Source of the DNA: Vitreoscilla sp.
GTDB lineage: Bacteria; Pseudomonadota; Gammaproteobacteria; Burkholderiales; Burkholderiaceae_C
Reading direction: 5' to 3'
Assembly: GCA_018780145.1 (NCBI GenBank)
Contig: JADMKA010000009.1
Coordinates: 1-64,000 of the forward strand
Length of the DNA stretch: 64,000 nucleotides
Part shown: positions 1 to 12,716 of the stretch, in pieces
Layout: each line of letters opens with the position of its first letter
Numbering within the stretch: position 1 is the stretch's first letter
Notes under the pieces: model-generated
What the model was told of the DNA's origin: nothing
Seen by the model: the letters and a program-made list of their open reading frames with translations, nothing else
The model's database searches: none
Position numbers and translations under genes: made by a program

Positions 1-118
1 TGCTGGCTCCATTACGCCGAACATCGGTGGCTCCATTACGGCGGTCGGTGACAGCTCATTCTGCCTTGCCCGCGCGTGGCGTTCCGATGTTGGCGGCGCC
101 TCAATTCGAACGTTAGAT
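1..118 (+). other. attC site of the upstream cassette (left end cut by the window)
   Basis: The L'' arm CGCCGAACATCGG (15-27) pairs with the L' arm CCGATGTTGGCG (84-95) along 12 bases, leaving one unpaired G at 19. A single extrahelical base is a hallmark of attC folding. The R' core GTTAGAT is at 112-118. The R'' box should lie just left of base 1. Confidence 0.75.
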
Positions 119-151
119 TTCCAAAACACAATCCATGCCACTCGGAGCGCT

Positions 152-1852
152 ATGGACCTCGTAACACAAAGCCTATTGACGTCCTTCGCAAAGGAGGAAT
201 CGCTACCCGGTGATCTGGACGAGGCGGTCCTCTTCGAACACTTCGTCAATTTCGCCGCTGTCTCTAACGAGTATGGCGATGAGTTTGATGTTGAAGACCT
301 TCACACAGGAGGCGGAGAAGACCTTGGAATTGATGGCCTCGCTATCCTCGTCAATGGAAACCTCGTTTCAGACAAAGACGAGGTAGATGATCTAGCCATA
401 GCGAACAAGTACTTAGAAGTTGAAGTAGTTTTCTGTCAAGCCAAATCAGGTGGCAACTTCACTGGCAGTGAGATTTCCAACTTCTTTTTCGGAGTAAAGG
501 ACTTCTTTTCGACCAAGCCGGCCTTTCCTAGAAATACCGAAGTTGCGCAAAAGGAGGCGCTTGTAAAGGAGATATACAAGAAAAGTTCATTATTCAAGCG
601 TGGGAATCCGACGATACGGATGTACTACGCAACCACCGGCAAGTGGCAGGACGACGCGAAACTTGTCGCTAGAATTGAGAATGAGAAAGATACACTTCTC
701 GAACTGAATATTTTCAAGGAAGTCAACTTTACCCCGGTCGATGCGCGGGCACTTCAGCGTCTCTATGCAAGCGCGAAAAATCGCCTCTCAAAGTCCATCG
801 AATTTACAAGCAAGGTGACACTGCCGACACTTCCGGGAATTCAGGAGTCTTACTTGGGGTATCTTCCGGCGGAGCAATACCTAAAGCTAATTATCGACGA
901 CTCAGGAAACATCGTTCGAGGCCTGTTTTACGACAACGTTCGAGACTTTCAGGGAAATAATCCTGTTAACCACGAAATGGACGAAACCCTGAAGTCGCCT
1001 GCGCAACAGTTTTTTGTGCTCATGAATAACGGCGTCACCATTGTCGCCGATTCAATTAGCAAGACTGGCGACACTTTCACGATTGAAGACTATCAGATCG
1101 TGAACGGCTGCCAGACTAGCCACGTGCTATTCAATAATATCTCCAACCTCAATAGTCCGGTTCATATTCCGGTAAAGCTGATAGTTTCCCAGGACGGAGA
1201 AGTCAAGAACAGAATCATCAAAGCGACAAACCGCCAGACGCCAGTGAAGACTGAAGAACTCACAGCGCTGACCGACTTCCAGAAGGCGCTTGAAGACTAT
1301 TACACAGCCATCACTGGCGACTGTCGTCTGTTCTACGAAAGGCGGTCTCAGCAGTACCGGTCGACTCCTGGCATTGAGAAGATTCGGATCGTAAGTATCT
1401 CGAATCAAATACGTTCGTTCGCCTCGGTATTCTTGGGCCTGCCGCACCAAGCAAGCCGCTACTACGGGACTCTTCTAAGCAGCATCGAATCGAAGATCTT
1501 TGTCCCGGGGCATCCTGCGGTAGCCTACTACACAAGTGCGCTCGCTTTGTACCGCTTTGAAGCACTAGTTCGTCGCAAGCAAATACCATCAAAGTATCGC
1601 CCTTTCAAGTATCACCTTATCGCAATCGTAAGAATACAAATCGCCGGCGCGGCCATGCCCGCAATGACTGCCAACAAGTTCGAGAAATATTGTGACTCAG
1701 TTGTCGCGGTCCTGAAGGATGAGAAGAAGTGCGTTGCTTCATTTCAATCAGCTATTTCGATACTTGACCAAGTTCTAGCTGGTGATTTTTCGCGTGATCG
1801 CGCAAAGGACGCATCGCTACTGAATATCGCAGAGACGAAGTGCAAACCATAG
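152..1852 (+). CDS. AIPR-family abortive-infection (anti-phage) protein, integron cassette gene
   Basis: This 566-aa protein resembles the AIPR (abortive infection phage resistance) family. The N-terminal third (about residues 40-110) has the pattern of a PD-(D/E)XK nuclease-like fold: a GIDGLAI segment with an acidic residue, followed by VVFCQAKSGG, which supplies the Q-x-K. The middle (about 270-400) carries the AIPR core, including FVLMNNGVTIVAD, YQIVNGCQTSH and IIKATNRQTPVK. Family members are tied to phage defence, but the exact target is unknown. The start ATG lies 34 bases inside the cassette, after a GGAG at 144-147. The gene fills cassette 1 and stops 11 bases before its attC. Its codon use is more A/T-rich than the chromosome to the right, which supports transfer. 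Family assignment is from recognisable motifs, not from a search. Confidence 0.8.
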   Translation: MDLVTQSLLTSFAKEESLPGDLDEAVLFEHFVNFAAVSNEYGDEFDVEDLHTGGGEDLGIDGLAILVNGNLVSDKDEVDDLAIANKYLEVEVVFCQAKSGGNFTGSEISNFFFGVKDFFSTKPAFPRNTEVAQKEALVKEIYKKSSLFKRGNPTIRMYYATTGKWQDDAKLVARIENEKDTLLELNIFKEVNFTPVDARALQRLYASAKNRLSKSIEFTSKVTLPTLPGIQESYLGYLPAEQYLKLIIDDSGNIVRGLFYDNVRDFQGNNPVNHEMDETLKSPAQQFFVLMNNGVTIVADSISKTGDTFTIEDYQIVNGCQTSHVLFNNISNLNSPVHIPVKLIVSQDGEVKNRIIKATNRQTPVKTEELTALTDFQKALEDYYTAITGDCRLFYERRSQQYRSTPGIEKIRIVSISNQIRSFASVFLGLPHQASRYYGTLLSSIESKIFVPGHPAVAYYTSALALYRFEALVRRKQIPSKYRPFKYHLIAIVRIQIAGAAMPAMTANKFEKYCDSVVAVLKDEKKCVASFQSAISILDQVLAGDFSRDRAKDASLLNIAETKCKP

Positions 1853-1863
1853 CGGCGAAGGAA

Positions 1864-1974
1864 ATCTAACCATTCGCTCAACCGGACATTTTGCGGCGGG
1901 CCGCGTTTGGGCTTTATTTCATTCTCGTCCAAACCCATCCAGCCGCAAAACGCCGGTTAGCTCAAACGTTAGGC
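1864..1974 (+). other. attC site of cassette 1 (111 bp)
   Basis: R'' is ATCTAAC (1864-1870) and R' is GTTAGGC (1968-1974). The L'' arm ACCGGACATTTTGCGGC (1881-1897) pairs with the L' arm GCCGCAAAACGCCGGT (1942-1957). L'' is one base longer, which gives the expected extrahelical base. An inner GTTTGG/CCAAAC pair extends the hairpin. Confidence 0.88.
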
Positions 1975-1983
1975 GTCACCAGA

Positions 1984-2604
1984 GTGCTCGAACCCTACCT
2001 CCAACAGCGATCCGAAGAGCTTGCGGCAGAACTGGCAATCGTCTTCGCCGCTGAACCAGCAGATGATGGTGCTGACTTCGAGCTTGCGAGAGTGGCTGCC
2101 TCTCTTGCGGTAGAGCACTGGCTTGCGTCACTCGCACTTCTGTCTAGTGGCTTGCTATCCGCTGCTGCTGTCGTACATCGCGCGCAGTACGAGGCTGTCC
2201 TCCGGTCGGTTTGGATTCGTTACAGCGCGAGTGAGGTACAGCTAGAAAAGCTTGCCCAGGTGGTGAACACACAAACGTCCCAAGCTGCCCAGAGCCTAGC
2301 TTCCTCATCTGAGATGATGAAGGCCATCGAGCATGACGCTCCCCGACCACTGGTCATTGCGCTACAAACGTTTAGAGATAACTCCTGGAAGTCGCTGAAT
2401 TCCTATGCTCACGCCGGGCTGCACGCGATCCGACATCACGATGTCGGATACCCAGCATATCTGTTCGAGGGAACGGCGAAGAATTCAAATGGCCTCGCGA
2501 TGCTCGGAGCCATGCACGTTGCATCGCTGACGGAAGATGAAGCCCTCATGAAGCACACTCATTCGCTTCAATTCAAATACGCAAACTGTTTCGCGCCAAA
2601 GTGA
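1984..2604 (+). CDS. DUF6988-like helical protein of unknown function, integron cassette gene
   Basis: This 206-aa, largely alpha-helical protein has no signal peptide or membrane segment. Recognisable stretches are HRAQYEAVLRSVWIRYSA (about residues 75-92) and LNSYAHAGLHAIRHH (about 160-174), a pattern I associate with DUF6988/DUF5677-type proteins often met in accessory DNA; the biochemical role is unknown. The reading frame is open further upstream, but that part overlaps attC 1864-1974. The first start codon inside the cassette is GTG 1984, 16 bases after the recombination point, and I take it as the start. It sits immediately downstream of the AIPR cassette, but cassette order does not imply joint function. 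Confidence 0.6.
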   Translation: MLEPYLQQRSEELAAELAIVFAAEPADDGADFELARVAASLAVEHWLASLALLSSGLLSAAAVVHRAQYEAVLRSVWIRYSASEVQLEKLAQVVNTQTSQAAQSLASSSEMMKAIEHDAPRPLVIALQTFRDNSWKSLNSYAHAGLHAIRHHDVGYPAYLFEGTAKNSNGLAMLGAMHVASLTEDEALMKHTHSLQFKYANCFAPK

Positions 2605-2605
2605 C

Positions 2606-2671
2606 GCTTAACCCCGTCAAGGGGACGTCTTGCGGCAAGCCGCAAGCCGCCGGCTACCTCGAACGTTTGGC
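2606..2671 (+). other. attC site of cassette 2 (66 bp)
   Basis: R'' GCTTAAC (2606-2612) begins one base after the stop codon of the preceding gene, and R' is GTTTGGC (2665-2671). The centre is a perfect hairpin, CTTGCGGC-AA-GCCGCAAG (2629-2646). R' departs from the GTTRRRY consensus at its fourth base, so this site may be weak. Confidence 0.7.
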
Positions 2672-2676
2672 CTCTC

Positions 2677-3099
2677 ATGCATTCACCCGCGCCCGATGCC
2701 ACCGCAAGCAAAGCTCCCATCTTCGGCCTGGGTTCCATTGCCGTTGCGGGCTTTCTGGGCGGCCCAATTGCCGTGGGCTTGCTTGCGGGCAAGAACATCC
2801 AGCAACTTGGGCTGTCGCAGCGCGCGCCTCTCGCGATTGCGCTGCTAATGGTCGCAATTGCTGCGTGGGTCTTCATAGCCATCAACACCTCGCCAGATCT
2901 CATCTCGCAGTTGATACCACTCTTGCCCCAGGTAGCACTCTGGTGGCTTTGTGCACGCGAGTTCCTCCGTCAAGCGCATCGCCGACACTCAGCACTTGGC
3001 GGAAGGTATCGCTCAGTCTGGCTCGCAGTTGGTCTAGGTATCCTCGTATCAGCCGCCACCAAGTTTGTCTTTTGGCTCGTCACGTCACCCTCAGCATGA
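2677..3099 (+). CDS. Small integral membrane protein, integron cassette gene
   Basis: I do not recognise a family for this 140-aa protein. It has about four hydrophobic segments: near residues 15-38 (glycine/alanine-rich, IFGLGSIAVAGFLGGPIAVG), 50-70 (LAIALLMVAIAAWVFIAI), 75-92 and 113-135. A basic loop (REFLRQAHRRH) lies between the third and fourth, as expected of a cytoplasmic loop. The ATG at 2677 is 11 bases inside cassette 3, so little leader is possible. Small membrane proteins are common cassette cargo and their functions are mostly unknown. No canonical attC follows the stop codon, so this appears to be the last cassette of the array. Confidence 0.65.
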   Translation: MHSPAPDATASKAPIFGLGSIAVAGFLGGPIAVGLLAGKNIQQLGLSQRAPLAIALLMVAIAAWVFIAINTSPDLISQLIPLLPQVALWWLCAREFLRQAHRRHSALGGRYRSVWLAVGLGILVSAATKFVFWLVTSPSA

Positions 3100-3115
3100 G
3101 TCCCCCAACCCCGAA

Positions 3116-3131
3116 GCCTGACCCCTCAGGC
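3116..3131. terminator. Perfect hairpin after the last cassette
   Basis: GCCTGA-CCCC-TCAGGC forms a six-base-pair stem with a four-base loop, 17 bases after the stop at 3099. It lacks a T tract. It could be a weak terminator or part of a decayed attC, since a CCCCAAC resembling an R'' box precedes it at 3103-3109. Confidence 0.35.
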
Positions 3132-3277
3132 AGGGTGGCGCCCGAGACCCGCACGGCAACATGGGGTGGATCTCACTGCGGACTGTCCAAGAGCCGTACA
3201 CACCATGATGCGGAGAGTGCCCTGGCTGGCCAGGTAACGGGCGACGAAAGGACGACCGCGCAAGAGGCAGGTGTGCT

Positions 3278-4975
3278 TCAGCGCAGCGTCACCTCGGCCC
3301 GCACCGTACCGGCCCGCGCTGCAGTGGCCTGCAGCGTCAGCACCGTGCCCGCGGGGGCCTCGACGGTCCACTCGGCCAGCGCGCGGTCGCCGGTGATCTC
3401 GCGGGTGGGCAGGAAGGCCAGCAGCGAGTTCTTGGCGGCGTGGCCTTCGAGCTGCGGGCCGTCGATGCGCGGCTTGCCGCTGCGCAGCGTGGCGCCCGCG
3501 GGCAGGCCGATCTCGAACACGCAGGGCCGCGCGGCCTTGCGCTCCAGTGCGCGCTTGCTCACATAGGCCGGCAGGTAACCGGCGTTGCCGACGGCGAAGC
3601 GCACGCGCCAGGTCGTCGGGCCCAGGGCCTCGGCGGTGGCGAACAGCACTTCGAGCTTGGGCAAGGTGAGGCCGATCTGCGTCAGCCACGCCGGGAAGCG
3701 CGCGGCCTCGCGCTCGCGCAGGTGCGGGGGCGGGTTGCGCCAGTAGTTCATGCGGTCCCAGCCGCCGATTTCCACCGCACCCAGCTGGGGGTGGGTGAAG
3801 GGCTGCCAGTCGACATGGGCCAGGCCGCCGCACTGCTCGTCGCTCCATTTCAGCAGCTTGAGGTCGTCCTCCGGCGGGTGATCCCGGTACCAGTGGATCC
3901 AGTCGTAGTCGGTGATGCCGGCCTCCTTGTTCGGGGCCCAGATCTCCACCGTCCAGAACAGCGCGCCCAGGTGCTCGTACACCCAGTCCTGGGTGCCGGT
4001 GATGATCTCCTTGGGGTGGTACTTGAAGTCGTGGAAGATGCTGATCGCCGGGTAGCCGGTGAGCTTGGCGCCGATGTCCGACAGGCGCTTGTAGACCCAC
4101 AGGTCCTCGGGCGTCATGTCGTCGTCGCTCTGCGTGCCCATGGGCCGCAGGATCACGCCCGAGTGGGTGTGGAAGCTGACCGCCGCGCCGATGTTGGGGT
4201 GCTTGACGATGAAATCCACCATCGCCCGCACCTCGGGCTCGCTGGTCGGGTAGGGGCCGGCGCCCAACTGCTCGAACTCCTGGCGCCAGAAGGCCGGGAA
4301 GTTGCGGTTCAGGTCCAGGCCCTCGCGGTCGCGGTTGGCGTGGATGGTGACGCCGTCGTAGTTCTCCAGCAGGCCCTCGGGCATCACCCGGTAGTAGGTG
4401 CCGCCGAACTCGCCCGGCTCGCGCGGGATCAGCAGGCGCGGCTCCTGCGGGTGCGGCTTGTAGCTGCCGTGCGGATCTTTCACACGCATCTGCAGGATGC
4501 GGCCGTCGCCGTCCACGTCCTGGATGGTCAGGCCGTCGACATGCGGCTCGTCGTAGGGGTAGGCGCGGGTGGACGAGCGGATGTGGCGCGGCCGGTCGGC
4601 CAGGGCCAGCTCGGCGCCGTCGGGGTTCAGGCGCGGGCAGAGGTAGACCACCCGGGTGTCCAGCAGCTCGGTGACCTGCGCGTCGCTGCCATGGCCCTGC
4701 AGCAGCTGGTGCAGCCAGTACAGGCAGGCGGTGCTGGCGGTCAGCTCGGCGGCGTGGATGTTGCCGTCGACCCAGAAGGCGGGCTTGTCGGTGTCGGCAC
4801 CGGTGGCCCGGTTGGTGACCACGGCCAGCGCGATCTCGCGGCCCTCGTGGCTTTGGCCCAGGCAGCGGATCTCGACGAGGCCGGGGCGCGCCTCGGCGTA
4901 GTCGCGCAGCAGCTGGATCAGTTCATCGTGCTTGTAGAAGCGGTCGAACTGCGGGGTCGGCAGGGGGGTGGTCAT
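3278..4975 (-). CDS. M14-family zinc metallocarboxypeptidase
   Basis: This 565-aa protein should remove C-terminal residues from peptides. Family M14 signatures are present in order: the zinc ligands H-x-x-E in NIHAAELT (about residue 74), the substrate-binding LNRNFP, the third zinc ligand in VSFHTHSG, and the general-base glutamate in WTVEIWAPN. The C-terminal 150 residues form a beta-rich extension beyond the catalytic domain. No signal peptide follows the chosen start, so it is probably cytoplasmic. The frame runs upstream to 5221, but that part is the translated 80-bp repeat. The ATG at 4975 begins the recognisable protein (MTTPLPTPQFDRFY). It is transcribed alone and converges with the integron array. 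Confidence 0.85.
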   Translation of the reverse strand: MTTPLPTPQFDRFYKHDELIQLLRDYAEARPGLVEIRCLGQSHEGREIALAVVTNRATGADTDKPAFWVDGNIHAAELTASTACLYWLHQLLQGHGSDAQVTELLDTRVVYLCPRLNPDGAELALADRPRHIRSSTRAYPYDEPHVDGLTIQDVDGDGRILQMRVKDPHGSYKPHPQEPRLLIPREPGEFGGTYYRVMPEGLLENYDGVTIHANRDREGLDLNRNFPAFWRQEFEQLGAGPYPTSEPEVRAMVDFIVKHPNIGAAVSFHTHSGVILRPMGTQSDDDMTPEDLWVYKRLSDIGAKLTGYPAISIFHDFKYHPKEIITGTQDWVYEHLGALFWTVEIWAPNKEAGITDYDWIHWYRDHPPEDDLKLLKWSDEQCGGLAHVDWQPFTHPQLGAVEIGGWDRMNYWRNPPPHLREREAARFPAWLTQIGLTLPKLEVLFATAEALGPTTWRVRFAVGNAGYLPAYVSKRALERKAARPCVFEIGLPAGATLRSGKPRIDGPQLEGHAAKNSLLAFLPTREITGDRALAEWTVEAPAGTVLTLQATAARAGTVRAEVTLR

Positions 4976-5050
4976 GCGGGTGGCACGGTGGCGAGAAGGG
5001 GGTGAACGAGTGTCGCACCGCCAACCGGGGTGCCGCCCCCCGTGAACGCG

Positions 5051-5130
5051 GCCGGCGCACGGCCGCCCCGAAGCGGCCGCGCGACCCGCCCGGCGGGTGG
5101 GGCTGCGTACCCGCAGCACCGGGTGCGCCA
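5051..5130. repeat. 80-bp repeat, copy 1
   Basis: Copy 1 of a direct repeat with a 90-bp period (copy 2 at 5141-5220). The last 50 bases of the two copies differ at one position only. Each contains ACCCGCCCGGCGGGT, which can fold into a short GC stem. The copies fill the gap between the peptidase start and the response-regulator stop. Confidence 0.85.
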
Positions 5131-5140
5131 TTCCACACGC

Positions 5141-5220
5141 GGCCAGCGCCGGGCCGCTCCCAAGCGGCCGCGTACCCGCCCGGCGGGTGGGGCTGCGTAC
5201 CCGCAGCACCGGGTGCCCCA
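5141..5220. repeat. 80-bp repeat, copy 2
   Basis: Copy 2 of the repeat at 5051-5130. It ends two bases before the response-regulator stop codon at 5223, so its hairpins could act in transcript termination or 3'-end protection. That role is inference. Confidence 0.85.
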
Positions 5221-5222
5221 AT

Positions 5223-5996
5223 TCACTGCCCCTTGAACAGGCCCTGGAAGTGGCGCGACACCGGCAGGCGCTCGTGGCGGCCGCGCAGCGCCAGCACCAT
5301 GCTGCCCTCGTCCACCCTGAGCGCGCTGGCGATGTGGTGGTGGTTGACGATCACCGAGCGGTGCACCTGCCAGAAGCGCTCGCCATCCAGCTCGGCCAGC
5401 AGCTCCTTCAGCGGGGTGCGGATCAGCGCCTCGCCGCCGCCCGCCTCGTCGTCGTAGACCACCCGGGTGTAGCGGGCGTCGGATTCGAAGTAGACGACCT
5501 GCTCGGTGCGGATCAGCCTCACCTCCTTGCCGATGCCGGCCTGGATCACCGACAGCGGGGCCGGCTTGCGCAACTGCCCGGCCAGCTGGCCGAGCAGGGC
5601 CTGCAGCCCCGGCACCTGGTGGGTGGCCTGGCGCACGCGCAGCCGGCTGACCGCCTGCGCCAGCCGCTGGGCGTCGACCGGCTTCAGCACGTAGTCCACC
5701 GCGCCGGCGTCGAAGGCCTGCAACGCGTGGTCGCCATAGGCGCTGACGAAGACCACCTGGGCCCGGCCGCCGATGCGCTGCGCCACCTCGATGCCGGTCA
5801 ACCCGGGCATGCGGATGTCGAGAAAGCAGATGGCCGGCTCGTGCTCCAGGAACGCGTCCCAGGCATCGACGCCATGCGTGGCCTCGGCAACGATCTGCAG
5901 CTCGGGCCAGGCGTGCTGCAGGGCCGCGCGCAGCTGCGCACGCGGGCCCTCCTCGTCGTCGGCGATCAGGGCGGTGGGGGGTGGCAGGTGGCTCAT
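5223..5996 (-). CDS. LytTR-family response regulator
   Basis: This 257-aa cytoplasmic DNA-binding regulator has a receiver domain at about residues 8-125, with acidic residues in IADDEEGP, the phosphoacceptor aspartate in ICFLDIRMPG and the conserved lysine in YVLKPV. A LytTR DNA-binding domain follows at about 155-255 (EVRLIRTEQVVYFESDARYT, FWQVHRSVIVN). LytTR proteins bind DNA through beta-strands rather than a helix-turn-helix. The start ATG at 5996 overlaps the kinase stop by four bases (ATGA), so the pair is translationally coupled. The frame is open upstream to 6848, but that part is a shadow of the kinase gene. AlgR/LytR-type members control surface or stress genes; the targets here are unknown. 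Confidence 0.92.
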   Translation of the reverse strand: MSHLPPPTALIADDEEGPRAQLRAALQHAWPELQIVAEATHGVDAWDAFLEHEPAICFLDIRMPGLTGIEVAQRIGGRAQVVFVSAYGDHALQAFDAGAVDYVLKPVDAQRLAQAVSRLRVRQATHQVPGLQALLGQLAGQLRKPAPLSVIQAGIGKEVRLIRTEQVVYFESDARYTRVVYDDEAGGGEALIRTPLKELLAELDGERFWQVHRSVIVNHHHIASALRVDEGSMVLALRGRHERLPVSRHFQGLFKGQ

Positions 5997-7096
5997 GAGG
6001 CTGCGGGGGTGACAGGGCGGCACGGCCATTCGAGGCGCGCCAGGCAGCCGCCCTCGGGCGGGTTGGTGTGGGTCAGTTGCGCGGCCTCGCCAAAGGCCTG
6101 GGCCATGCGGGCGCGGGTGTTGGCCAGGCCCAGCTGCCCAGGGCCAGGCTCGGCGCCGGTCGCTCCGCAGCCGGGGCCGTTGTCGAGGATCTCCACCGCC
6201 AGCCGGCCGGGCCCCTGACGGCGGGCCGTCACCGTCACCGCGCCGCCGGACAGCCGGGCGCCCGCGCCATGCTCGACGGCGTTCTCCACCAGCGTCAGCA
6301 CGGCACCGGGCGGCAAGGCGGCCTCGCGCAGCAGCGCGTCGTCTTCGGCCTGGACGGACCAGGACAGCCGGGCGCCCCAGCGGGCCTGCATCACCTCCAG
6401 GTAGCGGCGCACCGCCTCCAGCTCGTCGGCCAGGCTGAGCTCGGTGCGCTCGAACAGCGGCAGGGTGGCACGCAGGTAGCCGGTCAGCGAGCGCAGCAGT
6501 GGTGCGGCGCGCGCGTCGCCGGTGTCCACCCAGTGCTGCATCGAGGCCAGGGTGTTGAAGACGAAGTGCGGCTTGACCTGGGCGGTGGCCAGCTGGCGGG
6601 CCAGGGCGACGGCGCGGTCGCGTTCGTCGAGCTCGCGCAGCCTGGCCTCGATCTGCTGGGCGCGGAACACGGTGACGAACCAGAAGCCGATCAGGCTGGC
6701 CGCGAAGGCCGTGGCGGCGGCGTAGAACAGCCACAGGCGGTCCGGCCCGGCGGCCATGCGCCACTTCAGGCCCAACGCGAAGGCCGCATAGACGGCCAGC
6801 ACGGCGAAGGACAGCTGCATCAGCAGCCGGCGCGTGGGCCGGCGCCACAGCATCATGCCGCCCTGGTAGGCGCCCACGAAGATGGCCACCAGGATGCCCA
6901 GCAGCCGCGCGCCCTGGCCCTGCGGTGCATTGAACAGCAGGGCCTGCGCGAACACCGCCAGGTTGACCGCCAGCACCACGGTGAAGGTGCGGCTGGGCCG
7001 GTCGCCGCCGGCGCGGGCCATCTCGGCGTCGCTGAACACGCGGCGCGGGCCTGGGTACCAGAGCTGGCTCCAGTCGATGCGGTCGTCAGAGGTCAT
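5993..7096 (-). CDS. LytS/AlgZ-type sensor histidine kinase
   Basis: This 367-aa membrane kinase is the partner of the adjacent LytTR regulator. Four hydrophobic segments occupy about residues 38-150. They are followed by the His_kinase family core with the phosphoacceptor histidine in QVKPHFVFNTLASMQ and an HATPase domain with N-box LVENAVEHGAG and G-box ILDNGPGCG, ending near GLANTRARM. It lacks a periplasmic sensor domain, so the signal is probably sensed in or near the membrane. The start is ATG 7096 (MTSDDRIDWSQLW). The gene overlaps the regulator by four bases. The leftward transcript should begin in the short gap at 7097-7191. Confidence 0.92.
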   Translation of the reverse strand: MTSDDRIDWSQLWYPGPRRVFSDAEMARAGGDRPSRTFTVVLAVNLAVFAQALLFNAPQGQGARLLGILVAIFVGAYQGGMMLWRRPTRRLLMQLSFAVLAVYAAFALGLKWRMAAGPDRLWLFYAAATAFAASLIGFWFVTVFRAQQIEARLRELDERDRAVALARQLATAQVKPHFVFNTLASMQHWVDTGDARAAPLLRSLTGYLRATLPLFERTELSLADELEAVRRYLEVMQARWGARLSWSVQAEDDALLREAALPPGAVLTLVENAVEHGAGARLSGGAVTVTARRQGPGRLAVEILDNGPGCGATGAEPGPGQLGLANTRARMAQAFGEAAQLTHTNPPEGGCLARLEWPCRPVTPAAS

Positions 7097-7191
7097 GCGG
7101 CCAGTGTAGGCAGCGCCCGGGCGCCGTGGCCGGGAAGTCGGGCGAATGGCGCCCGCGGTGTCATGAACGGCGGCGTATCGCGGCCGATCGG

Positions 7192-7953
7192 TCAGCAGCT
7201 GGCGGCCGGCGCCCCGTCGACGAACACCCGCAACTCGCCGGGCGCGAAGGGCGTCCAGGCCTCGTCGGCCGTCAGCGGCTCGGTGGCGACCACGGCCACC
7301 CGGTCGTCCGGCGTGGTGGCGTGGGCGAAATCGACGGTCACGTCGTCGTCCTTCAGGCTGGCGCTGCGGAACGGGTGCTGGCGGACCAGCCAGTACAGCT
7401 TGGTCGAGCCGTGGGCCCACAGGGCCTGGCCGTTGGACAACAGCATGTTGAAGGTGCCGTGGCGGTGCAGTTCGGGCAGCAGTTCGCGCAGCGTGCAGTT
7501 CAGCTCGGCGATCTCGGGCACGCCGGCGTGGGCCTTGGACAGCTCCTGCATCAACCAGCAGAAGGCGCGCTCGCTGTCGGTGTCGCCCACCGGGCGAAAC
7601 GCCGCATGCAGGCGCGGCTGGAAGTTCTTCAGGTCGCCGTTGTGGGCAAACACCCAGTAGCGCCCCCACAGCTCGCGCACGAACGGGTGGGTGTTTTCCA
7701 GCGACACCCGGCCTTGCGTGGCCTTGCGGATGTGGGCGATGACGTTGCGGCTGTGGATCGGGTAGGTCTTGACCAGCTGGGCGATGGCCGACTCGCACGC
7801 GCTGGCATGGTCGATGAAGACCCGCACGCCCTTGTCCTCGAAGAAGCCGATGCCGAAGCCGTCCTTGTGCTCGTCGGCGCGCGTGGCCAGGCCGGTGAAG
7901 CTGAACATCACGTCGGTCGGCGTGTTGGCATTCATGCCGAGCAGTTGGCACAT
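7192..7953 (-). CDS. Class II glutamine amidotransferase (YafJ-like)
   Basis: This 253-aa protein is an N-terminal-nucleophile (class II) glutamine amidotransferase. Cys2 directly follows the initiator Met (MCQLLGMN), as required after Met removal. The family pattern continues with DGFGIGFFED (about residues 31-40), IAHIRKATQG, NTHPFVRE and the catalytic-site VFAHNGDLKNF. It matches stand-alone YafJ-type proteins, with no synthase domain fused. The acceptor substrate of this family is not established. It is monocistronic, and its start lies about 60 bases from the palindrome at 8013-8032. Confidence 0.9.
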   Translation of the reverse strand: MCQLLGMNANTPTDVMFSFTGLATRADEHKDGFGIGFFEDKGVRVFIDHASACESAIAQLVKTYPIHSRNVIAHIRKATQGRVSLENTHPFVRELWGRYWVFAHNGDLKNFQPRLHAAFRPVGDTDSERAFCWLMQELSKAHAGVPEIAELNCTLRELLPELHRHGTFNMLLSNGQALWAHGSTKLYWLVRQHPFRSASLKDDDVTVDFAHATTPDDRVAVVATEPLTADEAWTPFAPGELRVFVDGAPAASC

Positions 7954-8012
7954 GGTGGTGGTGGGCGAGCGGGCTCCGGCCGATTGTAGGCAGCGGGGCC
8001 GGGCCGGTGCTT

Positions 8013-8032
8013 GTCTTGACGATCGTCAAGAC
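8013..8032. promoter_or_regulatory. Perfect 20-bp palindrome, FNR/FixK-like box, in a divergent promoter
   Basis: GTCTTGACGATCGTCAAGAC is a perfect palindrome. Its core TTGA-N6-TCAA has the spacing of Crp/Fnr-family boxes. It lies between the leftward amidotransferase (start 7953) and the rightward DksA-like gene (start 8084). Its centre, near 8022.5, is about 61 bases before the DksA-like start codon, which suits an activator site at about -41.5 of a promoter starting near 8064. The binding protein is unknown. Confidence 0.55.
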
Positions 8033-8083
8033 GCGCTGCGGCGCACCGGTCCACGATGGAAACCATCCAACGAGGGACACCCC

Positions 8084-8479
8084 ATGAGTTCAGCCCTGCA
8101 CCTCACCACCGGGCAGCGTGCCCTGCTCGAAGCCGAACTGCGCCTGCGCCAGCAGGCGCTGGACAGTGAGCTCGAAAGCCGGCACGAAGGCCGCGGCCGC
8201 GTCGAGCACGCCGAGGAGGTGCTGGCCCAGGACGGCGACGACGCCCCGCAGCGCGACGCCGACCGCGACATCGACCTGGCCCGCTCGGACCGCACGATGG
8301 TCGAGCTGGGCCTCGTCAGCCGCGCGCTGCGCCGCGTCCACGAGCCCGACTATGGCCTGTGCCAAGGCTGCGGCGAACCGATCGCCTTCGACCGCCTGAA
8401 GCTCGAACCCTGGGCCGAGCGCTGCGTGCCCTGCGAGACCGCGCACGAAGGCCCATCACCGGCCCGCCACCGCCTGTAG
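8084..8479 (+). CDS. TraR/DksA-family C4 zinc-finger protein
   Basis: This 131-aa protein has an acidic coiled-coil N-terminal half (about residues 8-75) and a C-terminal C4 zinc finger: CQGCGEPI at about 94-101 and CVPC at about 115-118. It belongs to the DksA/TraR superfamily, whose members bind in the RNA polymerase secondary channel. It lacks the length and coiled-coil tip of canonical DksA and looks like a short stress-type paralogue. The start ATG 8084 is preceded by GAGGGA (8072-8077). The frame is open far upstream but without coding character. The palindrome at 8013-8032 is the obvious regulatory site. Confidence 0.88.
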   Translation: MSSALHLTTGQRALLEAELRLRQQALDSELESRHEGRGRVEHAEEVLAQDGDDAPQRDADRDIDLARSDRTMVELGLVSRALRRVHEPDYGLCQGCGEPIAFDRLKLEPWAERCVPCETAHEGPSPARHRL

Positions 8480-8577
8480 CCGGCAGGGGCCGGGGCCTCT
8501 CCCCCCGATTCGGGATTGCCGGTCCGGCATGCGGTGGCCTATGCTGCGGCGAGCCACGCATCCCGGAGAACGCGCCC

Positions 8578-11439
8578 TTGCCGAGCAACCCGGCCGACCC
8601 GCCGCTGTCCGACCTGCCATTTGCCCATGGCGCCCTGCGTGCCCAGGTGGAGCGGGAGCAGATGGCGGTGCGTGTTCTCGCGCGCCTGACGGCGGGGCTG
8701 GCGGCGCTCACCTGGCTGTCCGTCCCCATCCAGACCTGGCTGGGCGCGCCGACGGCGCACGCCCAGTGGCGGCTGCTGACAGGCACCCTGCTGCTCGCCG
8801 CCACCGGCCTGGGCCTGTGGCTGGACGCCCTCGGCAGGCACCGCCAGGCCACGGCAGCGCTGCTGGGCATGATCCAGTTGTGTGTCGGCCTGTTCGCCTG
8901 GGGCAGCGGGCTGGGCCTGATGTCGGCCTTGCTGGCCGGCTCGCCGGTGCTGCTGGTGCTGGCCGGCGTGCTGGCCAATGCCACGGCGGCCTGGTTGCTG
9001 GCCGGCCTGCAGATGGTGCTGCTCGCCGCGCTGTACCTGGGCGGCACCGCGGAGGCGACGGCGGCAACCGCCAGCGGCGGGGCCCGGCTGTTCTCGCACG
9101 CGCTGGTGACCATCGGCGCGCTGTTTGCCGCCATCACGCTGGGCCGCCAGGTGGCGCGCACGCTGCATGACGCCCTCGTGAAGGAGCATCGGCTGGCGGA
9201 GCTGCTGCGCCTGGGCAGCGACTGGACCTGGGAGGCCGACCGAAAGGGCGTGATGACCTACATCTCGCCCAGCTTCGAGCGGCACACCGGGCACCGGGTG
9301 GCCGAGTTCCTGGGCATCGAGCAACCAGGAGGGCCGCGCATCGTGCGCGACGCCGAGTGGGAGCTGCTGATCGCCGACCTGCGCGCGCGGCGCGCCTACC
9401 GCGGCCGGGTCATCAGCTTCGAGTTGCCTGGCGGGCAGATCCTGTGCGTGCGCGGCACCGGCGAGCCGGTGCTCGACGAGGCCGGCAAGCACGTGGGCTG
9501 GTGGGGTATCAGCCAGAACGTCACCGGCGAGGTGCTGGCTGCCCGCGAGCACGAGCGCTCGCGGGCGATGCTCGACAACCTGGTGCGCCTGTCGCCCGAC
9601 GCGATCACCGTGGTCAGTCTGGGAGATGGCCGCATCATGCTGGCCAACCCGGGTTTCCTGCGCCTGTCCGGCTTCGGCCAGGCCGAGCTGGTGCTGGGCC
9701 GCACCGCGCTCGAGCTGGGCCTGTGGCGCGATCCGGAAGAGCCTCGGCGCCTGGCCGACGCCGTGCAGGCAACCGGGGTGGTGCGCGACCTGCGCAGCCA
9801 GCTCTGGCACCACGGCCAGAACGCGCGCGACGTGATGCTCACAGCCGCCCGTTTCGATTGGGACGGTGAACCGGTGGCGGTGGTCATCAGCCGCGACATC
9901 ACCGACATGGAGCGTGCCCGGCTGCAGGGCGATGCGATCCTGAACCACGCCGCCGTGGGCATGGCGCTGGTCCGCGAGCGCCGGCTGGAGCGCGTCAACC
10001 CCCAGCTGGAACGCATGTTGGGCGAGGCGCCGGGCACCCTGGCCGGCCGATGGGTGGCCTCGGTGTTCGACGACGACGTCAGCTACCAGGCTTTCCTGGC
10101 CCAGGTGCAGAAGCGGGTGCTCGCCGGCCTGCCGGTGGAGGTCGAGCACGAGCTGGGGCGCCGCGACGGCACGCGCTTTCTGGCCCTGCTGCGCTCGAAA
10201 CTGGTCGACCCGCGCCAGCCCGAGGCGGCGGGGGCGATCTGGGTCCTCGAGGACATCACCGCGCGCCGTCGCATCGAGCAGAACCTGGAGCAAGCGCGGC
10301 AACTGGCCGAGGCCGCCAGCGATGCCAAGAGCGCCTTCCTGGCGCATGTCAGCCATGAGATCCGCACGCCGTTGAACGGGGTGCTGGGCCTGGCCCGGTT
10401 GATGGCCGAGCCCGGGCAATCCGACACCCGGCGCCAGGAGTACCTGGCCTACCTGATCGACGCGGCCGAGAGCCTGAACGGCATCGTCTCCAACGTGCTC
10501 GATCTCAGCAAGATGGAAGCCGGCAAGCTGCAGGTCGAGGCGATCGAGTTCGACCTGGTGGACCTGGTCGAGAAGGTGCATGGGGCGCATGCCGTGCTGG
10601 CCGATGCCAAGGGCCTGGCGATGCGCCACCACCTGGCCCCGGGCGTCCCGCGCCGGGTGCGCGGCGACCCGCTGCGCCTGCGCCAGATCGTCAGCAATTT
10701 CATCGCCAACGCGATCAAGTTCACCAACGAAGGGCGGGTCGACCTGCGGGTCCGCGTGGCCGCACCGGGCCGGCTGCGCTTCGAGGTCGAAGATTCGGGC
10801 ATCGGCATCGACCCTGCCGTGCTGTCCAGCCTGTTCCAGCCCTTCGCCCAGGCGGACCACTCCACCACGCGGCGCTTCGGTGGCACCGGCCTGGGCCTGT
10901 CGATCACCCGCGAGCTGGCCCAGCTGATGGGCGGCGAGGTCGGCGTGCACAGCGTCGATGGGCAGGGCGCCTGCTTCTGGGCCGAGCTGCCGCTGCCCAC
11001 CGCCAGCCCCGCCGCCGCCGAGCCCGAGCGGCCGCCACCGCCGATCGACGCGCCGCTGCGCGGCCTGCGCCTGCTGCTGGCCGAAGACAACCCGGTGAAC
11101 ATGCTGATCGCCGTCGAAATGCTGACCCGGCTGGGGGCCGACGTGACCCAGGCCAGCGACGGCGCCCAGGCCGTGATGGCCTGCCAGGCCGCGCCCGCCA
11201 GCGTGGACGTGGTGCTGATGGACCTGCACATGCCGCAACTCGACGGCCTGGCCGCGGCGCGCGAGCTGCGGCGCGACCCGGCCACTTGCCACATCCCGGT
11301 GGTGGCCTTCAGTGCCGCCGCACTGGACCACGAGCGCGAACAGGCCCGTGCCGCCGGCATGGACGAGTTCGTCGGCAAGCCGGTGCAGCGCGACGAGCTG
11401 GTCAGCGTGCTGTCGCGCTACCGGCCCGCGCCTGCCTAG
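8578..11439 (+). CDS. Hybrid sensor histidine kinase (multi-PAS, HisKA, HATPase, receiver)
   Basis: This protein has about 953 aa. A hydrophobic N-terminus with five to six membrane segments (about residues 30-190) is followed by three PAS-like units. The first begins near SDWTWEADRKGVMTYISPSF, the second near LVRLSPDAITVVSL and the third near LNHAAVGMALVRERRLERV. The HisKA domain has the H-box HVSHEIRTPLNG (about 590). The HATPase has an N-box (FIANAIKFT) and G-boxes (EDSGIGID, GGTGLGLSI). A C-terminal receiver (about 830-950) has LLAEDNPVN, the phosphoacceptor in VVLMDLHMPQLDG, and FVGKP. There is no histidine phosphotransfer domain. The start is probably TTG 8578, with GGAGAA at 8565-8570 seven bases upstream. 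An in-frame ATG at 8662 is the alternative. No cognate output regulator is adjacent. Confidence 0.88.
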   Translation: MPSNPADPPLSDLPFAHGALRAQVEREQMAVRVLARLTAGLAALTWLSVPIQTWLGAPTAHAQWRLLTGTLLLAATGLGLWLDALGRHRQATAALLGMIQLCVGLFAWGSGLGLMSALLAGSPVLLVLAGVLANATAAWLLAGLQMVLLAALYLGGTAEATAATASGGARLFSHALVTIGALFAAITLGRQVARTLHDALVKEHRLAELLRLGSDWTWEADRKGVMTYISPSFERHTGHRVAEFLGIEQPGGPRIVRDAEWELLIADLRARRAYRGRVISFELPGGQILCVRGTGEPVLDEAGKHVGWWGISQNVTGEVLAAREHERSRAMLDNLVRLSPDAITVVSLGDGRIMLANPGFLRLSGFGQAELVLGRTALELGLWRDPEEPRRLADAVQATGVVRDLRSQLWHHGQNARDVMLTAARFDWDGEPVAVVISRDITDMERARLQGDAILNHAAVGMALVRERRLERVNPQLERMLGEAPGTLAGRWVASVFDDDVSYQAFLAQVQKRVLAGLPVEVEHELGRRDGTRFLALLRSKLVDPRQPEAAGAIWVLEDITARRRIEQNLEQARQLAEAASDAKSAFLAHVSHEIRTPLNGVLGLARLMAEPGQSDTRRQEYLAYLIDAAESLNGIVSNVLDLSKMEAGKLQVEAIEFDLVDLVEKVHGAHAVLADAKGLAMRHHLAPGVPRRVRGDPLRLRQIVSNFIANAIKFTNEGRVDLRVRVAAPGRLRFEVEDSGIGIDPAVLSSLFQPFAQADHSTTRRFGGTGLGLSITRELAQLMGGEVGVHSVDGQGACFWAELPLPTASPAAAEPERPPPPIDAPLRGLRLLLAEDNPVNMLIAVEMLTRLGADVTQASDGAQAVMACQAAPASVDVVLMDLHMPQLDGLAAARELRRDPATCHIPVVAFSAAALDHEREQARAAGMDEFVGKPVQRDELVSVLSRYRPAPA

Positions 11440-12716
11440 GCCTTCTTCTTCAGCAACCAGTGCAAGGCGATGGCGCCAAAGGTCGCCGTGCCGATGCCCC
11501 CGAGTGCGAAGCCGCCGAACTTCAAGGTGTAGTCGCCGGTCCCTAGCACCAGCGTGACGGCCGCCACGATGAGGTTGGTGTTGTCGGCGAAGTTCACCTT
11601 GTTGTCGACCCAGATCTTCGCGCCGGCCACGGCGATCAGGCCGAAGACGACGATGGACACACCGCCCATCACCGGCAGCGGGATGGCCTGGATCAGCGCG
11701 CCGAACTTGGGTGAGAAGCCCAGCAGCACGGCGATCAGCGCGGCCACCACGAACATCGCGGTCGAGTAGATCTTGGTCGCCGCCATCACGCCGATGTTCT
11801 CGGCGTAGGTGGTGACGCCGGTGCCGCCGGAAGCGCCGCTGACCATCGTCGCGATGCCGTCGCCCAGGAAGGCGCGGCCCATGTAGCGGTCCAGCGGGCG
11901 GCCGGTCATCGCCCCCACGGCTTTCACGTGGCCCAGGTTCTCGGCCACCAGGATGATGGCCACCGGCGCGATCAGCAGGATCGCCGGGCCGCTGAACACC
12001 GGCGCGGCGAACTGCGGCGCACCGAACCACGCCGCCTGCGCCAGGCCGGTGAGGTCGATCGGCTTGCCCCAGTCCAGCCCGTTGGCGAGCACCGCGTAGA
12101 TCAGCGTGGCCGCGATCAGCCCGACCAGGATCAGCAGCCGCTGCGTCATGCCGCTGGTGCGTACCGCCACCAGGCCGACACAGATGAAGGTCACGGCCTG
12201 CATCCACTTGTCGAAATCGGTCGGTGCCATGTTCTTGATCGGGATACCGGCCAGGTTCAGGCCGATCACCGCCACCACCGCGCCGGTGACGACCGGCGGC
12301 ATCAGCGACTCGATCCATGCGGTGCCCACGCCCATCACCAGCAGGCCGATCAACGCATAGACCAGGCCGCAGACGACGATGCCACCCAGCGCCACGCCCA
12401 GGTTGGCGTTGGCCCCGCCGCCCGCATAGCCGGTGGCGGCGATCACCACGCCGATGAAGGCGAAGCTGGAGCCCAGGTAGCTGGGCACCTGGCCGCCGAC
12501 GATGACGAAGAAGATCAGCGTGCCGATGCCCGACATCAGGATCGCCACATTGGGGTCGAAGCCCATCAGGATGGGCGCCAGCACGGTGGCGCCGAACATC
12601 GCGATCACGTGCTGCACGCCCATCGCCACGGTCTGTGGCCAGGGCAGGCGTTCATCGGGGGCGACGACGGCGCCCGGCGTGGCCGGGACTTCGCGCCAGG
12701 TGGGTAACAGGCTCAT
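11436..12716 (-). CDS. NCS2-family nucleobase permease (uracil/xanthine type)
   Basis: This 426-aa inner-membrane protein has about 12-14 hydrophobic segments and is typical of the nucleobase:cation symporter-2 (UraA/RutG) family. The N-terminal motif QHVIAMFGATVLAPILMG and the substrate-site regions LVAENLGHVKAVGAMTGRPL and GASGGTGVTTYAENIGVM are well preserved. The conserved acidic residues in AENLGH and YAENIG fit uracil-type members better than ascorbate-type ones. The ATG at 12716 is preceded by an AGGAAT-like site in the leader. Its 3' end overlaps that of the hybrid kinase by four bases. Substrate (uracil, xanthine or thymine) cannot be decided from sequence alone. Confidence 0.9.
   Translation of the reverse strand: MSLLPTWREVPATPGAVVAPDERLPWPQTVAMGVQHVIAMFGATVLAPILMGFDPNVAILMSGIGTLIFFVIVGGQVPSYLGSSFAFIGVVIAATGYAGGGANANLGVALGGIVVCGLVYALIGLLVMGVGTAWIESLMPPVVTGAVVAVIGLNLAGIPIKNMAPTDFDKWMQAVTFICVGLVAVRTSGMTQRLLILVGLIAATLIYAVLANGLDWGKPIDLTGLAQAAWFGAPQFAAPVFSGPAILLIAPVAIILVAENLGHVKAVGAMTGRPLDRYMGRAFLGDGIATMVSGASGGTGVTTYAENIGVMAATKIYSTAMFVVAALIAVLLGFSPKFGALIQAIPLPVMGGVSIVVFGLIAVAGAKIWVDNKVNFADNTNLIVAAVTLVLGTGDYTLKFGGFALGGIGTATFGAIALHWLLKKKA

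Follow-up and report, generated by a model that had tools for sequence, protein, structure and literature searches.

The stretch analysed here, hereafter the window, comprises 64,000 nucleotides of Vitreoscilla sp. (assembly GCA_018780145.1, 280 contigs, 5.57 Mb) and begins at base 1 of contig JADMKA010000009.1 (C192, 82,057 bases). Its left end carries integron cassettes with their attC sites, bordered on the right by a chromosomal gene for an M14 zinc carboxypeptidase and on the left, at the contig end, by part of an insertion sequence (IS). Since an Rfam scan of window bases 1-4000 returned no attC match (one snoRNA match lay far under the cut-off), we used a covariance model of our own, R1, built from 15 attC sites of contig C243 and two of contig C54 of the same genome, the sites of the window being held out. 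The features are as follows.

1-53, no strand: istB-side end of an IS21-like element present in several copies; six other contigs end in 53-55 identical bases
54-58, no strand: 5-bp target-site duplication GCTCA; the same five bases stand directly before the related IS end on contig C197
54-118, plus strand: right half of a split attC, with both the L' arm and the R' arm (core GTTAGAT, 112-118); C197:8319-8389 supplies the left half
113-1968, plus strand: cassette 2, with the AbiU/AIPR gene; its R'' (1864-1870) is complementary to the border at 112 across 11 bases
152-1852, plus strand: AbiU-like AIPR protein of 566 aa (Pfam AIPR, PF10592, 7.7e-47, residues 259-499; PADLOC AbiU, PDLC02357, 3.7e-141, residues 2-556)
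1861-1977, plus strand: intact attC (R1 60.6 bits, E 3.1e-14 in 64 kb); it spans 111 bases, R'' beginning at 1864 and R' ending at 1974
1969-2665, plus strand: cassette 3, with the DUF6988 gene; bordered at 1968 and 2665, its R'' (2606-2612) having one mismatch to its border
1984-2604, plus strand: DUF6988/PDC-S52 protein of 206 aa, GTG start, predicted all-helical (Pfam 2e-51; PADLOC PDC-S52 5.4e-60)
2603-2674, plus strand: intact attC, the last of the array (R1 61.4 bits, E 1.9e-14 in 64 kb)
2666-3277, plus strand: distal segment, G+C about 0.6; its open reading frame (ORF) starts 12 bases past the border G, and no attC follows
2677-3099, plus strand: 140-aa protein without known family, with hydrophobic stretches by eye and no Pfam match above the cut-off
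3278-4975, minus strand: M14 zinc carboxypeptidase gene, the chromosomal flank (Pfam Peptidase_M14 1.2e-45 for the ORF containing it); iorA/iorB are its neighbours in some relatives

The window holds three true cassette borders and two intact attC sites. A preliminary description, made from the letters of the window alone, had counted three attC sites with matched borders and proposed a covariance model as a check; the borders are real and R1 recovers two sites at E-values near 1e-14, but the third attC is cut by the IS, and its match at 43-121 reaches only 15.7 bits (E 0.09 in the 64-kb window), because the 5' half of that site is absent from the window, bases 1-53 being the IS end. After the two intact sites the next-best match in the window scores 16.8 bits and lies on the opposite strand, within the first site. 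The bottom strand of the attC at 1861-1977 folds as DNA at -29.3 kcal/mol. In an alignment of 19 sites, including the two of the window, six of the 14 predicted pairs show compensatory changes on both sides, and the L arm contains single unpaired columns (19 and 26), as in known attC anatomy.

The exact complementarity reported between R'' (1864-1870) and the border at 112-118 was confirmed and extends to 11 bases (GTTAGATTTCC); any such 11-base pair arose in 6 of 500 dinucleotide shuffles of window bases 1-3300. Between the border at 1968 and R'' at 2606-2612, 10 of 11 bases match by eye. The three ORFs of the cassette region all lie on the plus strand, as had been stated, and G+C in 500-base windows is 0.47-0.61 within 1-3250, against 0.66-0.76 from 3001 to 12000, where the profile ends; the reported drop in base composition is real, and the view of the cassettes as foreign to a high-GC chromosome is supported. 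Beyond 3099 R1 found no attC in the 64-kb window, and the last ORF is therefore not demonstrated as a complete cassette: the segment 2666-3277 is possibly a fourth cassette that has lost its attC, or DNA of another kind separating the M14 gene from the last attC. A scan of window bases 1-3400 for promoters of the E. coli type gave none, with 1.7 expected by chance.

The insertion sequence and the probable left neighbour

The element ending at window base 53 can be classed as IS21-like, since ends 80-82% identical to bases 1-53 lie, in two plasmids, 31 bases after istB of annotated istA-istB pairs. It resembles the IS21 family in this position of its end and in the 5-bp duplication, and differs in that the window-side copy is unassembled and known here from its end alone. 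Related ends, 75-80% identical to window bases 1-53, are found at six more contig ends and are taken as the other end of the same element. An IstB on C154 carries an internal stop, and no such IS end was seen on that contig.

From the shared target duplication, the attC divided between the two contigs and synteny, we infer that C197 is the left neighbour of the window. When the flanks of C197 and the window are joined, an attC-type hairpin forms (bottom strand -49.1 kcal/mol in a 153-base stretch), with R'' at C197:8319-8326. Among the 42 flank pairings (7 x 6), C197 and the window gain most from being paired, -27.8 kcal/mol compared with -13.1 kcal/mol for the next. Certain points weigh against the join: the IS copy between the two contigs is unassembled, so that the join is deduced rather than sequenced across; among 42 pairs, chance alone yields a 5-bp match with a probability of about 4%; and the pairs C2-C25 and C23-C54 match at 6 bases, without a comparable hairpin gain, and thus the target duplication alone is not decisive.

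The M14 locus was compared in 11 relatives and 80 named loci, which are overlapping sets, 12 of the 80 loci having less than 1 kb beyond M14. On the 3' side of the same M14 gene, and in the same orientation, iorA/iorB are present in three of the 11 relatives (L106, L107 and L110) and in 11 of the 80 loci, and the relative L105 has other C197 genes beside M14; in the remaining relatives and loci neither iorA/iorB nor other C197 genes were seen near M14 within the sequence covered. A porin-like gene, so named from its sequence, lies between M14 and iorA/iorB in L106 and L107. In L197 and L215, M14 and iorA are separated by 175 and 192 bases, which leaves no room for a cassette. At E <= 0.01 R1 found no attC in the 11 relatives and C197 (one 20-bit match, E 0.018, far from M14), nor in the 80 loci (one 21-bit match, E 0.051). 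This synteny between M14 and iorA/iorB, with no attC in the relatives, therefore gives independent support to the neighbourhood of C197 and the window. Granted the join, sequence comparison shows the array to be an insertion relative to the relatives compared. The presence or absence of each cassette at its exact borders in related strains had been suggested as a check; at this locus L197 and L215 are without cassettes.

C197 contains one cassette (cassette 1) of about 1.4 kb with three ORFs, two of them without a Pfam match and one with weak matches below the cut-off. Its left border (GTTAGGGCGCAGG) and its R'' match at 12 of 13 bases, and the complementarity of R'' to its own left border amounts to 12/13, 11/11 and 10/11 bases for cassettes 1, 2 and 3 (the first and third by eye). 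To the left of this cassette a spacer of about 550 bases leads to the putative iorA and iorB genes, named from our reading of their sequences, which point away. The array had been expected to continue leftwards, and an intI gene was to be sought left of base 1: it does continue, by this one cassette, but it does not run to attI and a leftward intI, as the cassette gives way to iorA/iorB and no integron-integrase match was found on C197. A permissive tblastn search with IntI (no composition correction) on C197, C54, C100 and window bases 1-3400 produced matches throughout GC-rich DNA and was set aside as uninformative on an intI relic.

Integrase, array class and possible origins

Only one IntI in the genome exceeds the curated cut-off, that of C243 (473.7 against 435 bits); seven other integrase matches are far under it and appear on reading to be other tyrosine recombinases, and no IntI over the cut-off was listed on C197 or C192. 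We therefore consider with good confidence that the array is a cluster of attC sites lacking an integron integrase (CALIN), lying between M14 and iorA/iorB and made up of three cassettes, perhaps with a fourth without attC. Where the class calls for at least two attC sites, the array has the two held-out sites at E about 1e-14 and the split one; and where a complete integron would have an adjacent intI, the flanking genes are iorA (left) and M14 (right), an absence that depends on the inferred join of C197 and the window. Integrase-less arrays are often called from drafts, where contig breaks can fake them. Here the break is resolved by the target duplication, the split attC halves and the relatives with the adjoining genes, and the absence of an integrase at this locus is therefore well supported. 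From left to right the locus would read iorA, a LexA-type box, an attI-like border, cassette 1 (three ORFs, on C197), the IS-split attC, cassette 2 (AbiU/AIPR), attC, cassette 3 (DUF6988), attC, a possible attC-less cassette 4, and M14.

As to the origin of the array, we lean towards a former integron platform, from which intI would have been lost while the SOS box and the insertion border were kept. The motif CTGTN8ACAG is the LexA consensus. The spacer on C197 contains such a box (CTGTATACACATACAG) about 125 bases before the left border of the cassette, its single occurrence on that contig; the motif is absent from the 64-kb window and from eight other loci scanned, occurs once in the 1.12 Mb of the 80 related loci, and on C243 stands upstream of intI. 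The left border (ACACGTTAG) is nearer to the attI-like borders of C243 and C54 (TCACGTTAG) than to attC borders (AACGTT). The bases upstream of it, compared with the C243 attI, gave a score reached by 3 of 1000 shuffles, the control scores of the three window attC borders being reached by 292 to 961 of 1000. This resemblance to attI is suggestive only. Against the loss of an integrase gene stand the comparison of the same bases with the C54 attI, whose score was reached by 150 of 1000 shuffles, the presence of CTGTN8ACAG also inside a C243 cassette, so that the box is not restricted to intI, and the spacer between iorA and the cassette, in which no intI remnant was recognised.

An integron integrase acts on attC as a folded bottom strand. 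From established integron biology, the C243 IntI, working in trans under the SOS response, could therefore still cut the intact attC sites, and the IS in the first attC should block the folding of that site, partly freezing the array. Tentatively, an integron abandoned without its integrase may then have been locked by the IS21-like element in the attC hairpin, the AbiU and DUF6988 genes becoming fixed chromosomal defence loci; this sequence of events is possible, though we would not call it probable, and if true it would be a snapshot of mobile defence cassettes turning into permanent chromosomal genes. The locus is a defined place at which to ask if cassettes left stranded can still be mobilised by a distant integrase.

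Alternatively, the C243 integrase may have put the cassettes between M14 and iorA in trans, at an attG, a genomic site of non-classical type, without an intI ever having been present at the locus. The open intI frame on C243 and the single attC-like sites on seven other contigs would fit such a course, and insertion at attG has reportedly been described by Loot and colleagues in 2024. However, attG is not where one would expect a perfect CTGTN8ACAG box next to an attI-like border, and the M14-iorA gap of 175-192 bases in L197 and L215 compares with about 550 bases from iorA to the first border here. Insertion in trans is a plausible but somewhat doubtful account of the array. It is very improbable that the complete C243 integron has its distal end in the window, with C243 followed by lost contigs and then by C192: C243 does end inside an attC in the right orientation, and the last attC of the window closely resembles the C243 consensus, but the target duplication, the split attC and synteny place C197, which leads into iorA/iorB, to the left of the window, and most C243 sites are of another length than the split attC and the one at 1861-1977. 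Chance hairpins in low-GC foreign DNA, with no integron history, could be invoked for the third site alone, at its 15.7 bits, but are refuted at the stated thresholds by the E-values of the two held-out sites, the covariation over 19 sites, the matched borders and the attC restored across two contigs.

The complete integron on C243 (L018, C243:41000-51341) consists of intI with its LexA-type box, an attI-like border and 15 complete cassettes, plus a sixteenth cut by the contig end inside its attC; most of its attC sites are nearly identical. Among its cassettes are repeated ones in which no gene is convincing, namely family A (L018:4503-4912, 6569-6978 and 9909-10320; 95% mean column identity) and family B (L018:5409-5817 and 9437-9845; 90%). 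The frames examined in both families gave no Pfam match, and frames in two copies of family A and one of family B run into attC as a peptide like NPSVKGTSCGKPQAAPYLE. These cassettes are not put forward as a new class of RNA. On the reverse strand of C54 (L032, C54:1-20000) another attI-like region, which shares 73% identity with the C243 one over 221 bases, lies about 300 bases past a Zot-family gene (filamentous-phage type) and is followed by cassettes, with no IntI match listed on this contig. One C54 attC is apparently interrupted by a transposase-like fragment (L032, about 2200-2610), which we take to resemble an IS110-type transposase gene, and an R1 match of 41.5 bits persists at L032:2146-2221. 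C100 (L071, 1-15000) begins with the same IS21-like end as the window and has at least three attC sites on its minus strand (4041-4115, 6081-6164 and 6856-6939).

R1 counts on whole genomes are lower bounds, as 150 of 5719 first-look candidates were scored in this genome and, with stricter filters, 32 per genome across the family. Single attC-like sites, some degenerate, occur on C246, C231, C148, C168, C196, C248 and C101 (L080-L086); they were not counted as arrays, since a scan of up to 4 kb upstream of each revealed no left border with 6 or more matching bases, and are perhaps remains of earlier cassette insertions. Across the family, attC-type sites (E <= 1e-5) were found in at least 90 of 150 genomes. 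The find is thus ordinary in kind, its value lying in the resolved junction and the cargo.

Predicted cargo and comparison with known systems

For the AbiU protein, the structural model (mean predicted local distance difference test score, pLDDT, 69.9) was compared by VIA-align, as a second look at the Foldseek list in which Z below 8 (below about 13 for helical bundles) may reflect a common arrangement only. Residues 3-210 align with FokI (Z 9.0, root-mean-square deviation (rmsd) 4.1, 147 aligned) and MspJI (Z 7.9), as well as with nicking enzymes, Avs4 and HamA, and residues 226-364 with a ParB N-domain (Z 5.6) and weakly with SspE (Z 3.7). An alignment of six of the seven proteins found in genomes of the order (the L118 protein was omitted) has D61 and Q96 invariant and K98 in five of six. 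The protein is predicted from its model to fuse a PD-(D/E)XK-like nuclease part (about 3-210) to a ParB-like part (about 226-364), and would act as an abortive-infection-type nuclease gated by the latter. Its relatives are rare in the order (7 of 399 genomes, this one included), a related-loci search with the protein gave no relative, and 57 plasmid records hold one, the best about 46% identical; these plasmid relatives are annotated as AIPR family proteins.

The model of the DUF6988 protein is helical (pLDDT 89.8), and HEPN folds are among its top rows (Z 8.9-10.0), tied with unrelated helical bundles; with the sacsin HEPN domain it aligns over 126 residues (Z 10.0, rmsd 2.9), again tied with such bundles. 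It is possibly HEPN-like, and would be a defence candidate, perhaps an RNase of the HEPN type. The gene is present in 19 of 150 genomes of the family, counting this one, and an attC lies within about 1.5 kb of flank at 6 of 26 DUF6988 loci, that of the window included, in five cases on the gene strand; 13 of these 26 loci entered the DUF6988 alignment. A second DUF6988 gene of the same genome (L149, C196:59918-60412) is near an attC-like site on the opposite strand. The 140-aa protein of the distal segment appears nearly an orphan, with two weak partial matches besides itself in 299 family genomes.

A defence function of cassettes 2 and 3 is predicted by profile only. Evidence that tempers this picture comes from the search of the AbiU and DUF6988 models against PDB with Foldseek, which gave no match at E <= 0.001, and from the six other AbiU relatives of the order, none of which has an attC within the flanks examined; a sequence search of solved structures with both alignments returned nothing.

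The array clearly exemplifies a structure of a known kind; in it, an AbiU-type protein and a DUF6988 defence candidate appear as single-gene cassettes. Darracq, Getz, Kieffer and colleagues are said to have described, in three 2025 papers, defence genes in chromosomal and mobile integrons; the present cassettes likewise carry predicted anti-phage genes, but the prediction comes from profiles only, and their array has no integrase. The AbiU protein follows its AbiU/AIPR family in the PADLOC match over residues 2-556 of 566 and in its plasmid relatives of up to 46% identity, and differs as a single-gene cassette, the six order relatives being without attC in the flanks examined. HEPN proteins of integron cassettes are known (PDB 3jrt; PMC3710099) and, as far as that account goes, are likewise small helical proteins in cassettes, of which DUF6988 is only a candidate HEPN member.

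In the IntegronFinder 2.0 account of CALIN, which defines them as clusters of attC sites lacking an integron integrase, 2961 are counted against 2760 complete integrons, with a warning that draft genomes inflate CALIN counts (PMC9024848). As far as that account describes the class, the present array resembles it in its two intact attC sites and one split attC, with no adjacent intI, and in its number of cassettes, which is below that of the genome's complete integron; it differs in the attC interrupted by an IS21-like element and in the LexA-type box and attI-like border at its left end. In the part of the Xanthomonas study concerned with such arrays, CALINs lie away from the integrase locus in about half of the genomes, those away from ilvD occurring also in genomes that keep intI, and some cassettes match abortive-infection systems (PMC12444791). 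The present array shares with them, on that description, the placement of cassettes at chromosomal spots apart from the intI locus, and differs in bacterial order, loci and cargo.

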